Shown piece after piece: positions 49,879 through 56,814 of a stretch of DNA of 64,000 nucleotides (the first letter of the stretch is position 1; each line of letters begins with the position of its first letter). A program made the translations under genes and the position numbers. The notes beneath the pieces are model-generated. The model worked only from the letters and a program-made list of their open reading frames with translations. It was not told where the DNA came from and ran no database searches. Location of the stretch: contig NZ_CP147020.1 in assembly GCF_037126435.1 (NCBI RefSeq), forward strand, positions 2,965,293 through 3,029,292, read 5' to 3'. This DNA comes from Bernardetia sp. ABR2-2B. GTDB taxonomy: Bacteria > Bacteroidota > Bacteroidia > Cytophagales > Bernardetiaceae.

Positions 49879-51315
49879 ATGACAGATAAAGATAAAGAAC
49901 ATTTAGACCAAGGCGCAAAATTTTATAAAGATGTCCTTGGCTCACTCAACAATGCAGCAGCTCTAACAAAGCATCCAAAAGGCTTATTAGAACAAATCAT
50001 TGTTCCGAATAGTGTCTATGAAATGAGTTTTCCTCTTCACTTAGATAACGGAGATTATCAAGTAATAAAGGCGTGGAGAGTTCAGCATTCACACCACAAA
50101 CTTCCAGTAAAAGGAGGTATTCGTTTTGCCGAAGCTGTAAATGCAGACGAAGTAAAAGCACTTGCAACACTTATGTCTTTTAAGTGTGCGCTCGTAAATG
50201 TTCCTTTTGGTGGAGCTAAAGGAGGAGTAAAAATTAATCCTAAGAAATATACTGCTCGTCAGTTAGAAACAATTACACGTCGTTATACGACAGAGCTTGT
50301 CAAAAAAGAAATGATAGGTCCTTCTATTGACGTTCCTGCACCAGATTATGGAACAGGAGCAAGAGAAATGGCTTGGATTGCTGATACGTATTCTCTTCTT
50401 CGTCCTGGAATTAATGCACTCGGCTGTGTAACAGGAAAGCCCCTTTCTATGCACGGAATACGTGGGCGTACGGAAGCAACAGGATTGGGAGTAATTTATG
50501 GTATTCGTGAAGCGATGAGTATTGCTGAAGATATGAAAGAGCTAGGTTTAGAAGCTGGATTGGCAGGAAAAACTGTTATTGTACAAGGTTTTGGTAATGT
50601 TGGTTATCATGCTGCTCTTTATGCACAACAAGAAGGAGCAATCATTGTCGGAATTGCTGAATATGAAGGTGGAGTATATAATAAAGATGGTTTTGATGTG
50701 GAAGATTTGTTCCGTCATCGTAAAGAAACAGGTTCTCTTATGGGTTATCCAAAGGCACAAGAAGTAAAGCCAAGTAATCAACTTATGGAGTTTGAATGTG
50801 ATGTTTTGATTCCTGCTGCATTAGAAAATCAAATTACGGAAGAAAATGCACCAAGAATAAAAGCTAAAGTAATTGGAGAAGGGGCAAACGGTCCTATAAC
50901 TAGAGAAGCAGAAGCAATTTTGTTAGGCAAAGGAAAAATGATTTTACCTGATTTTTACCTTAATGCTGGTGGTGTTACAGTTTCTTATTTGGAATGGCTC
51001 AAAAATCTTTCTCGTGTTTCTTTTGGTAAAATAACAAAACGTTATGACCAAATGGAAAATACTCGTATCATTCAGGCCATTGAAGGAGCAACAGGAAAAG
51101 GAGTAGGTGATGACCTTCGTAAAATGATTATGCGTGGTGCTGATGAGCGTGATTTAGTAAACTCTGCTTTAGAAGAAACAATGATTACTTCCTACCATCA
51201 AGTAAGAGAAACCTTTAAAAACTATAAAGACGTGCAAAGTTTGCGTAATGCAGCCTTCATTACTTCAATTGATAAAATTGCAATCGCTTATATGGAAGCT
51301 GGAATTTTTCCTTGA
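49879..51315 (+). CDS. gdhA: Glutamate dehydrogenase
   Basis: Interconverts glutamate and 2-oxoglutarate plus ammonia. 478 residues of the Glu/Leu/Phe/Val dehydrogenase family, in the short hexameric class. The substrate-binding KGGIRFAEAVNADEVKALAT and the catalytic lysine in VPFGGAKGGVKI (Lys114) are intact, as is the Rossmann segment KTVIVQGFGNVGYHAALYAQ. The long C-terminus (LRKMIMRGADERDLVNSALE) is normal. NAD or NADP use cannot be settled by eye. It is immediately followed by a terminator and the putative replication origin. Confidence 0.92.
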   Translation: MTDKDKEHLDQGAKFYKDVLGSLNNAAALTKHPKGLLEQIIVPNSVYEMSFPLHLDNGDYQVIKAWRVQHSHHKLPVKGGIRFAEAVNADEVKALATLMSFKCALVNVPFGGAKGGVKINPKKYTARQLETITRRYTTELVKKEMIGPSIDVPAPDYGTGAREMAWIADTYSLLRPGINALGCVTGKPLSMHGIRGRTEATGLGVIYGIREAMSIAEDMKELGLEAGLAGKTVIVQGFGNVGYHAALYAQQEGAIIVGIAEYEGGVYNKDGFDVEDLFRHRKETGSLMGYPKAQEVKPSNQLMEFECDVLIPAALENQITEENAPRIKAKVIGEGANGPITREAEAILLGKGKMILPDFYLNAGGVTVSYLEWLKNLSRVSFGKITKRYDQMENTRIIQAIEGATGKGVGDDLRKMIMRGADERDLVNSALEETMITSYHQVRETFKNYKDVQSLRNAAFITSIDKIAIAYMEAGIFP

Positions 51316-51395
51316 TTTAAGTCAAACAGTCAAAGTAAAAAACAACTCAAACTTTGCAAATCAAAGTATAAAGTTATTTTTTATAGAATTTATAC

Positions 51396-51430
51396 AAAAC
51401 CATTTCTTCTTAGGAGGGAATGGTTTTTTG
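51396..51430 (+). terminator. gdhA terminator
   Basis: AAACCATT-TC ... GG-GAATGGTTTTTT hairpin, 80 bases after the gdhA stop, directly before the DnaA-box cluster. Confidence 0.7.
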
Positions 51431-51457
51431 TTTGCTTTTAGCTCCAAAAACCAAATT

Positions 51458-52152
51458 TTATACACAATTTTTCGACTTATCCACATTTTGAATAAAGTTA
51501 TCCACATTGTTAGCCTTATTTTCTACTTTTTATCATTTTATTCTTTAAAAATCTAGACTTAACACGTTATTCACACAAGAAATCCAAATATAATTTGATA
51601 TTTATTTCACTTATCCACATTTTAACAAAAGTTATTAACAATTATATTTTTATTTCTAATTTTTTCGGTTGTAATTTCAAAAGGCTATTAAAATTTGCAG
51701 AGTTATCCACATATCAACATTATACTGTGGATAACTTTTTAGTTTTTAACTATTTCTCTTCCAAAAATTGCTAGTTATCCCCTTTTTGCACACTTATACA
51801 CAATTTGTGTGAATATGTGTGTATAAGCTCTACATCGATTGTGTGTAACTTATTGGTAACATTACTTACCAACAGGTGTGGATAACGTTACCAACAGTAA
51901 GTTTATGGTTATCAACAGCTTATCCACAATGTGAGTAAAAAGTGTCTATCAAATGTTGATAGTGTGGAAAAGTACATTAAAATATTGACAATCAACACTT
52001 TAAATTGTTTATAACTCTTAAAAAACTGTTGATAAACTTTATTTTTATGTGAATAACGTGTTGATAACTAGACTTATCCACTTATTAACACTATAATAGT
52101 AATAGTAAGGGTTTTTAAAGAGAGAATTTCTTATTATTTAGTGTGTGGAAAA
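51458..52152. other. oriC: Putative chromosomal replication origin (oriC) with a cluster of DnaA boxes
   Basis: No coding frame in about 980 bases between gdhA and a small lipoprotein gene. It contains at least twelve TTATNCACA boxes. Seven are exactly TTATCCACA: plus strand at 51477, 51498, 51611, 51703 and 51920; minus strand at 51726 and 51877. Variants are TTATACACA at 51458, 51794 and (minus) 51818, and TTATTCACA at 51567 and (minus) 52048. Further one-mismatch sites are TTATCCACT at 52074 and TTTTCCACA on the minus strand at 51963 and 52144. The flank 52090-52290 is very AT-rich and could be the unwinding element. DnaA binding at such clusters opens the duplex. dnaA is not in the window, which is not unusual outside Gammaproteobacteria. 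Confidence 0.8.
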
Positions 52153-52294
52153 GTTTTGATTTTGAGAAGAAAATTTTTTTTTGAAATGAATTTGAAAATT
52201 ATTTCATTTTTGTTTCTGATATAATTGCAGCAACTTATATTAAAGTTTCGTGGAGAAAGTAATAAATGTTATCAAACCTTAAAATTGTTTTTCT

Positions 52295-52762
52295 ATGCTG
52301 TACTATAAAATGATTTTGAATATTTTGATTCTCTTTTTGTGTACTAGTTGTTGTACTTGTAGTGATGATTGTAGTGGAGATGTTTCACCTTTTTATATAA
52401 GTGTAAAAGATAAAGTTACTGGAGAAGATGCTGTAATTAAATATAATATCAAAGAAGAAGAAGTTTTCTTGATAGATGATATGGGAAATAATATTGAACA
52501 ACTTATTTATATTACAAGAGACTCTTCTAATGCTTTTATTTCTTTATTTGTGAATGGATATGGTAGTTTTGAGAAAAAAGAAATTACTCTAAAACTAGAT
52601 ACTTTAGAAATAGGAAAATTCACTATTTCTACAAAGCCACGAAAAGAAAGCTATTGTTGTATTTCAAAAGAGTTAGATATTTTTGAACCTATTACACCTT
52701 CAATACAAATAACAAAAAGACCACAAGAACGCAGACAACCTTTTTATGAAGTTCAATTCTGA
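52295..52762 (+). CDS. Small cysteine-rich lipoprotein
   Basis: 155 residues. A hydrophobic signal leads to FLCTSCCTCSDDCSGDVSP, with a lipobox-like L-C-T-S-C and several more Cys. The rest is beta-rich (PFYISVKDKVTGEDAVIKYN, IKEEEVFLIDDMGNNIEQLI, EITLKLDTLEIGKFTISTKP), with KESYCCISKELD as a second Cys pair that could form disulfides. I do not recognise the family. An internal ATG at 52310 is an alternative start. It is the first gene to the right of the DnaA-box cluster. Confidence 0.65.
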   Translation: MLYYKMILNILILFLCTSCCTCSDDCSGDVSPFYISVKDKVTGEDAVIKYNIKEEEVFLIDDMGNNIEQLIYITRDSSNAFISLFVNGYGSFEKKEITLKLDTLEIGKFTISTKPRKESYCCISKELDIFEPITPSIQITKRPQERRQPFYEVQF

Positions 52763-53475: not shown

Positions 53476-53769
53476 TCACTTTAGATATTGCTTTAATAGC
53501 TTTATTATATCTTTTTGTTTGTACTCTTTAGCAACACTTAATGCTGTATCATTACTAAAACCTGCTTTTAATACAGGATTTGCTTTGTTTTCTAATAGAA
53601 ATTTTACAATACTTATATGCCCAAATTGTACACTTTCAATTAAAGGTGTTGTTAAGAACTCTGGGTGTTGATAGTTTGGATTTACACCTGCTTTAATGTG
53701 GTATTCTACAAGCTCTAAATTTCCCTCTTGAGAAGCAATTAGCATTTCTTTCCAGTCTCCTGCTGACAT
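53476..53769 (-). CDS. Short ankyrin-repeat protein
   Basis: 97 residues comprising two to three ankyrin repeats: WKEMLIASQEGNLELVEYHI, KAGVNPNYQHPEFLTTPLIE (the TPL motif), and SVQFGHISIVKFLLENKANP. The last repeat is AGFSNDTALSVAKEYKQKDI. Short ankyrin proteins of this type usually mediate protein binding. No signal peptide is seen. It stands alone, with 510 bases between it and nrdA on the other strand. Confidence 0.85.
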   Translation of the reverse strand: MSAGDWKEMLIASQEGNLELVEYHIKAGVNPNYQHPEFLTTPLIESVQFGHISIVKFLLENKANPVLKAGFSNDTALSVAKEYKQKDIIKLLKQYLK

Positions 53770-54279: not shown

Positions 54280-56814
54280 ATGTACGTAATCAAGCGAGAC
54301 GGCAGGAAAGAAGAAGTGATTATGCAAAAAATCACAGCCAGAATAGAAAGGCTTTGTGATAATTTGGACACTCGTTATATCAAACCAACAGAAATTACTT
54401 ATAAAGTGTTGGCAGGACTTTACGATAATGTAACGACTATCGAATTAGACGAACTAGCAGCCGAAACAGCAGCTACAATGGCAACTGTTCATCCAGATTA
54501 TGCAATTTTGGCATCAAGAATTGCTATTTCAAATCTTCATAAAGAAACTAAAGACGCTTTTTCAGAGACTATCGAAGAGCTTTATAATTACGTAAATCCA
54601 AAAACGAACGAACCAGCAGGTTTGATTTCTGAAGAGGTAGTACAGGTAGTTCGTAAATATGCTCACGTTCTGAATCAAGCTATTGATTACGGTAGAGATT
54701 ATGAGTATGACTATTTTGGTTTCAAGACTTTAGAGCGTTCATACCTTTTGCGCCTTGATGGAAAAGTAACTGAACGTCCTCAACAAATGATTATGCGTGT
54801 TTCTGTTGGTATCCATGGTGCTGATATTGATGCAGCTATCAAAACCTATCATTTAATGTCTGAACGTTGGTTTACACACGCTACTCCAACACTTTTTAAT
54901 GCAGGAACTCCAAAACCTCAAATGTCTTCTTGTTTCTTACTAGAAGTTCAAGATGATAGTGTTGATGGAATTTATGACACGATAAAGCAATGTGCTAAGA
55001 TTTCTCAGTCTGCTGGTGGAATTGGTGTGAGCGTTCATAACGTACGTGCAACAGGTTCATATATTCGTGGTACGAATGGCTACTCAAACGGAATTGTTCC
55101 GATGCTAAAAGTATTCAATGATACTGCTCGTTATATTGACCAAGGAGGAAACAAGCGTAAAGGAGCATTTGCTGTTTATTTAGAACCTTGGCACGCTGAT
55201 GTTTTTGAGTTTTTAGACTTAAAGAAAAATCATGGTAAGGAAGAAGCTAGAGCAAGAGATTTATTTTATGCCTTATGGATTTCAGATTTGTTTATGAAAC
55301 GTGTGCAGGAGGATGGCGAATGGTCATTATTCTGTCCGAATGAAGCTAGAGGTTTGTCAGATTGTTTCGGAAAAGAATTTGAAGATTTATATACAAAATA
55401 CGAATTAGAAGGAAAAGCAAGAAAAACAATCAGAGCGCAAGAACTTTGGTTTGCTATCTTAGAAGCACAAATCGAAACGGGAACACCGTATATGCTTTAT
55501 AAAGACCACGCAAATGGTAAATCAAATCAGCAAAATTTAGGTACAATAAAATCTTCAAATCTTTGTACAGAAATTATGGAATATACTTCGCCTGATGAGG
55601 TAGCAGTTTGTAATTTGGCTTCTATTGCTCTTCCAAAATATGTAATGGCAAATGAAGAAGGCGTATTAGAATTTAATCATCAAGTTCTTTATGATGTAAC
55701 CTATCAAGCAACTATTAATTTAAACAGAATTATTGATAGAAATTATTATCCAATTGAAGAGGCTCGTCGTTCAAACTTCCGTCATCGTCCAATTGGACTT
55801 GGTGTGCAAGGTTTGGCTGATGCATTTATTATGCTTCGTATGCCTTTTGAATCAGAAGAAGCTGCAAAATTGAATAAAGAGATTTTCGAAACGATTTATT
55901 TTGCTGCCATGACGGCTTCTAAAGATTTAGCAATTACAGAAGGAGCTTACGAAACTTTCGAAGGTAGTCCGTTATCAAAAGGACAATTCCAATTTGATTT
56001 GTGGAAAGTAGATGAAGATTATCATTCTGGACGTTGGAACTGGGAAGAATTGCGTAACGAAGTAGTAAAACACGGAGCTAGAAATTCACTCTTACTTGCA
56101 CCAATGCCAACAGCTTCAACTTCTCAAATTTTGGGAAATAACGAGTGTTTTGAGCCTTATACTTCTAATATTTATGTTCGTCGTGTTCTTTCTGGTGAGT
56201 TTGTGGTAGTAAACAAACACCTTCTGAAAGATTTGATTGAGATTGATATGTGGGATGATGAAATGAAAAATGAACTTATTGCTGCCAATGGTTCAGTTCA
56301 AAATATCAAACGTATTCCTCAAGAACTGAAAGAAATTTACAAGACGGTTTGGGAAATTAGTCAGCGTACAATTATTGATATGTCAGCTGATAGAGGAGCT
56401 TATATTTGTCAGAGCCAAAGTTTGAATGTTCATATTCAGAATCCTACTTTCGGAAAACTAACTTCTATGCACTTCCACGCTTGGAAACGAGGCTTGAAAA
56501 CAGGAATGTATTATCTTCGTACGAAAGCTGCTGCTGATGCAATTAAGTTCACAGTAGATAAAGATGCGCTAGAAGTAGGAAAAGAAGCAGCTAAAAACAA
56601 TAAATTGAAGGCTGAAAAAATAATGGCTGATAGCAATGAAGAAATTTTGGCTATGGCTGAAAACGGTATGGATATGGAGGAACAATCAAATCTTGCACTT
56701 GCTAGAATCCATAAACGCCAAAACGGACAAGCACAAGAAGAGCAGCTAAAAGACGGACTAGGAGGAGCAGCATGTTCACTAGACGACGAAGATTGTTTGA
56801 CGTGTGGAAGTTAA
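54280..56814 (+). CDS. nrdA: Class Ia ribonucleoside-diphosphate reductase alpha subunit
   Basis: Reduces ribonucleoside diphosphates to deoxyribonucleotides for DNA replication. 844 residues. The N-terminus is an ATP-cone (about 1-95, [20 protein letters not shown]), the allosteric dATP/ATP site. Key residues are seen: Cys218 (MSSCFLLEV), the thiyl motif NLCTE (Cys429, Glu431), Cys444 in VAVCNLAS, and the Tyr pair at 744-745 (MYYLRT). The C-terminal tail ends [13 protein letters not shown], the swinging thiols that pass electrons from thioredoxin or glutaredoxin. The Tyr pair and tail show class Ia. nrdB is not adjacent in the window. Confidence 0.97.

Follow-up and report, generated by a model that had tools for sequence, protein, structure and literature searches.

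Described origins and the Bernardetia locus

In the Bacteroidetes, an oriC located far from dnaA is stated to be common in a passage of PMC4755523, where the oriC predicted for chromosome I of Prevotella intermedia, like those of other Bacteroidetes in DoriC, is characterized by multiple DnaA boxes, a GC-skew transition and a large distance from dnaA. According to a passage of PMC5891637, the oriC of Cytophaga hutchinsonii, the chromosomal origin of a related bacterium, carries plasmids and served for oriC plasmids in the cited work of Xu et al. (2012). The basal unwinding system of Bacillus subtilis is described, in the relevant passage of PMC8287927, as DnaA-boxes plus DnaA-trios (3'-GAT-5') with a spacer of up to 16 bp.

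The locus presented here is very probably, at a rough probability of 0.94, the single chromosomal origin (oriC), of the ordinary DnaA type and situated far from dnaA. It shares the multiple boxes, the skew transition and the remote dnaA with the P. intermedia region, which is shorter (about 0.48 kb; passage of PMC4755523), and the likeness to this region and to the C. hutchinsonii oriC is one of description. The Bernardetia case is thus a new, well-supported example of an arrangement already reported for Bacteroidetes. The reading is based on the uniqueness of the box array, on its conservation, and on its coincidence with a switch in strand bias.

The window, i.e. the whole 64-kb stretch of DNA analysed, corresponds to C1:2,965,293-3,029,292 of a 5.38-Mb genome (99.5% complete), whose largest contig C1, with 5,299,216 bp, represents a Bernardetia-type chromosome of 5.30 Mb. 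Judging by gdhA, the closest named records belong to Bernardetia sp. (97% identity), an uncultured Cytophagales bacterium (96%) and Flexibacter sp. (92%). A reading made from the sequence alone had placed a box cluster in a coding-free, AT-rich stretch between gdhA and a small lipoprotein gene, with nrdA 2 kb away. Both named neighbours were confirmed by Pfam, the ribonucleotide reductase large chain (nrdA) being located at 54280, about 2 kb past the end of the cluster stretch. ORF reading of the gap between the end of gdhA at 51315 and the next ORF start at 52295 found no plausible gene, and GC content per 60 bp across the region is 0.15-0.37. A mechanical ORF at 51248-51556 was rejected as a gene, being out of frame and overlapping the end of gdhA. 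The right-hand ORF is a lipoprotein candidate by its signal-like start, and the 155-aa product has no Pfam match. The probable gdhA terminator would shield the origin from gdhA read-through. Between the small ORFs and nrdA, a short minus-strand ORF with ankyrin repeats occupies window positions 53476-53769.

Table 1. Position and basis of the features at the predicted origin and of the dnaA genes (window coordinates unless a genome and contig are given)
Feature	Position	Strand	Basis
gdhA, left neighbour	49879..51315	+	ORF reading; Pfam glutamate dehydrogenase
Probable gdhA terminator (CCATTTCTTC...GGAATGGTTTTTT)	51400..51430	+	Direct sequence reading; mostly kept across congeners
Predicted oriC, conserved gene-free element with DnaA-box array	51356..52190	.	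Alignment of 7 congeners
Core cluster, 12 TTATNCACA DnaA boxes (7 are TTATCCACA)	51458..52056	both	Box count
Two tandem TTATCCACA boxes (51477, 51498), left end	51477..51506	+	Invariant in 7 species
Inverted pair GTTATCCACA...TGTGGATAAC, centre	51702..51735	.	Kept in most congeners
Most conserved core: GATAACGTTACCAACA, TTATCAACA, TTATCCACAATGT	51881..51932	.	Congener alignment
Palindrome TATCAAATGTTGATA, invariant	51947..51961	.	Congener alignment
DnaA-trio-like run TTACTATTACTATTA with CCC before it; candidate for the unwinding start	52094..52108	-	Motif search
A+T-rich conserved right flank, candidate unwinding zone	52109..52190	.	Congener alignment
Small ORF (155 aa), right neighbour, differs across the genus	52295..52762	+	ORF reading
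dnaA	G000:C1:39802-40287; G001:C1:1116-1601; G004:C1:4670569-4671054

Box array and candidate opening site

The core cluster holds as many boxes as the sequence-only reading had counted (at least twelve in about 600 bp, seven of them exact, on both strands), with eight TTATNCACA matches on the plus strand and four on the minus strand. In the entire 64-kb window there are 14 such matches, while shuffled sequences averaged 3.1 and never exceeded 9. With up to one mismatch from TTATCCACA allowed, 18 sites were found in the 979 bp between 51316 and 52294, against 0.42 expected from 500 Markov simulations (maximum 4), and 19 in the remaining 63 kb of the window. Genome-wide, TTATCCACA occurs 75 times; seven of these copies lie inside 452 bp of the cluster, and elsewhere there are never more than two per 1 kb. 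The genome-wide uniqueness is based on TTATCCACA plus two spaced box patterns, TTATNCACA being present at no fewer than 100 places in the same genome. The cluster is the sole dense, gene-free DnaA-box cluster on the chromosome, and a denser one elsewhere, part of what had been named in advance as speaking against an origin, does not occur in the genome.

Within the array, plus-strand boxes prevail in the left part, and minus-strand boxes together with TTATCAACA variants in the right part. The inverted pair is the only one of its kind in about 1.9 Mb of sequence examined from the same genome (G000), and TTACTATTACTATTA is the only (YTA)5 run both in the window and in those 1.9 Mb; this unique pair and unique run fit with an oriC opened by DnaA. 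The trio-like run is retained in the congeners, as a four-unit run in G001. The invariant 16-mer GATAACGTTACCAACA (51881-51896) is likewise unique in the sequence examined, and it and the TATCAAATGTTGATA palindrome could possibly be recognized by some factor besides DnaA.

As in the basal unwinding system of B. subtilis, in the terms given in PMC8287927, there are five 3'-(G/A)AT-5' trios with a GGG/CCC step before them and boxes nearby, and the run agrees with DnaA-trios in both strand and form. Unlike in that system, the nearest co-oriented box (52144-52152, minus strand, upstream) is 36 bp from the run, compared with the published 0-16 bp. The published arrangement, with three or more trios no further than 16 bp from a DnaA box, gave no hit in the region under a scan with stricter scoring than in the publication (four trios or more, three of them YTA). 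This box reads TTTTCCACA here and TTATCCACA or TTATTCACA in most congeners. As the run lies beyond the published spacing, the unwinding site can only be inferred. Its likeliest position would be the right end, at about 52090-52190, comprising the trio-like run and the poly-A/T flank. Alternatively, opening could occur at about 51566-51665, left of centre, where the duplex is weakest within the region. Low duplex stability, at the 98.7-99.5th percentile in the window, was observed for the region, and weaker stretches also exist elsewhere in the window.

We infer DnaA binding, opening, helicase loading and bidirectional forks at this locus. DnaA, supplied from a gene 2.3 Mb away, would most likely nucleate on the consensus boxes, and the oligomer would then spread onto the weaker, near-consensus boxes and open the A+T-rich end of the element. 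Helicase loading would be followed by two forks, one moving towards nrdA and the other towards gdhA, which would meet roughly opposite, near C1:0.37 Mb. A more elaborate version, which we regard as unlikely, would have the trio run work at a distance of some 36 bp from the box that guides it, an extra origin factor bound to the palindrome and the 16-mer, and the low dosage of a dnaA gene near the terminus taking part in the control of initiation. With the origin placed at the array, the origin is fixed for a genus in which one or more complete records start their numbering at dnaA, and a reference point for growth-rate (peak-to-trough) estimates is obtained. The element also provides a ready sequence for Bernardetia oriC plasmids, and its invariant motifs are testable origin parts in a phylum of which few origins have been studied.

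Strand bias and alternative readings

Skew in the Bernardetia genome itself was sampled in 80 stretches, each of 20 kb (1.6 Mb in all), and in a contiguous local set of 19 more. The minimum of the sampled cumulative GC skew fell in the stretch at 3.05 Mb, no more than about 0.1 Mb from the cluster (3.017 Mb), in line with the check proposed beforehand. The same stretch held the minimum of the cumulative skew at 4-fold degenerate sites when the two gene strands were averaged. A two-breakpoint fit of the GC skew with a free terminus placed the origin broadly at 3.11 Mb, the middle half of the bootstrap values spanning 3.05-3.25 Mb, and none of 200 permutations was as strong; the 4-fold fit also gave 3.11 Mb and is weak when taken alone (17 of 200 permutations). 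When the chromosome was split at the cluster, with the terminus fixed opposite, the replichores differed in GC skew (p about 0.004) and in 4-fold skew (p about 0.005). Plateaus obtained with a symmetric terminus flank the cluster, at 3.27-3.98 Mb for the raw skew and at 2.35-3.10 Mb for the 4-fold skew. TA skew gave no signal, and dense local skew over 380 kb was too noisy to place the switch inside the window. In an independent complete, single-contig congener (G001; 40 sampled stretches), the optima of GC skew, 4-fold skew and gene orientation all fell at 2.00-2.33 Mb, with the homologous cluster at 2.059 Mb, and both skews exceeded all permutations (0 of 1000 as strong). Gene orientation at the cluster, considered alone, was non-significant in both genomes (p 0.13 in G000, 0.10 in G001). 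The switch in strand composition at the cluster is sharp in G001 and broad in G000, the skew being sampled in both.

The coincidence with this switch bears on a second possibility raised from the sequence alone, namely a locus of datA or DARS type, which titrates or reactivates DnaA and limits or resets initiation while replication starts elsewhere. A dense, gene-free box cluster distant from dnaA would suit such a locus. Against it, the datA of E. coli has few boxes and is located off the origin, any second cluster that could serve as the origin is missing here, and the array is not distinct from the strand-bias switch in two genomes, so that titration is not favoured and we consider it very unlikely. 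The suggestion of an oriC, by comparison, gained support, the only dense cluster in the genome being placed at the switch.

Outside Bacteroidetes, dnaA often adjoins oriC, and the numbering of the G001 record starts close to dnaA, which would agree with a true origin at or near that gene and with the array as a regulatory or relic element. The single-copy dnaA lies at C1:39.8-40.3 kb, 2.32 Mb from the cluster on the circle (C1 assumed circular), as expected from the earlier proposal that the origin is not beside it. Against an origin there, TTATNCACA is absent from 3.5 kb around dnaA (stretches L002 and L138) and from the first 20 kb of G001, and in G000 as well as in G001 the skew at dnaA has the opposite sign, which makes this reading extremely improbable. 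Some plasmid origins carry DnaA boxes as well, but that this is the origin of a mobile replicon, such as an integrated plasmid, is equally improbable, given the ordinary chromosomal neighbours (gdhA and nrdA, in an order common to part of the genus), the lack of a rep gene seen nearby and the retention of the array in three genera. The datA-like, dnaA-adjacent and plasmid-origin readings were rejected on cluster uniqueness, the strand-bias switch and the chromosomal neighbours.

Conservation and gene positions

The array is conserved among related species. It lies directly downstream of gdhA in 7 of 7 congeners including its own genome (in G006 through stretch L085), i.e. in all six other members of the genus, as had been suggested for checking. 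The alignable part of the gap spans about 830 bp in the seven and includes both boxes and other motifs that are invariant; past 52196 conservation collapses. The extent first given, 51458-52152, therefore contains the array, with 52152 as the last position of a TTTTCCACA variant site, but its limits are not those of the conserved element, which is longer (about 51356-52190). The right-hand neighbour genes vary among congeners while the array stays. Dense arrays are also present in two other genera, beside a RecN-like gene in G007, whose gdhA lies on that contig at a distance of 51 kb, and beside a CN-hydrolase gene in G008, which indicates that the array, not a neighbouring gene, persists. A pattern search revealed triple-box clusters of similar kind in 13 of 59 genomes of the order (control 0), and G009 and G010 had no triple-box match.

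The origin-like array of G008 (L117:6912-8067) holds about 33 TTATNCACA boxes, and its spacing pattern repeats three times, approximately every 212 bp, which suggests a tandem duplication inside the origin. Short tandem arrays of a unit of about 32 bp (TTATACACACRACGGTATATTTTTTTATGTAT), found at G001:C1:3446713-3446783 and G006:C45:5391-5526, mimic DnaA boxes off the origin.

Among the complete chromosomes, dnaA is located at 88% of the distance from the cluster to its antipode in G000, at 84% in G001 and at 96% in G004. Such a position near the predicted terminus is less usual and mildly noteworthy, although three related genomes do not suffice for a claim of selection. No dif site of the E. 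coli type was found with up to three mismatches allowed, and rRNA genes, which any bacterial genome should contain, were not found in these three chromosomes and were presumably missed. Under the proposed origin, the L2 ribosomal gene lies at some 72-78% of the distance to the antipode and is co-directional with replication in all three; rpoB runs with replication in G000 but head-on to it in G001 and G004. The rpoB genes (G000:C1:4325997-4327601, G001:C1:847094-848698 and G004:C1:3357861-3359465) are 1.2-1.3 Mb from the origin in each case, and their differing orientation at similar distance implies rearrangement.
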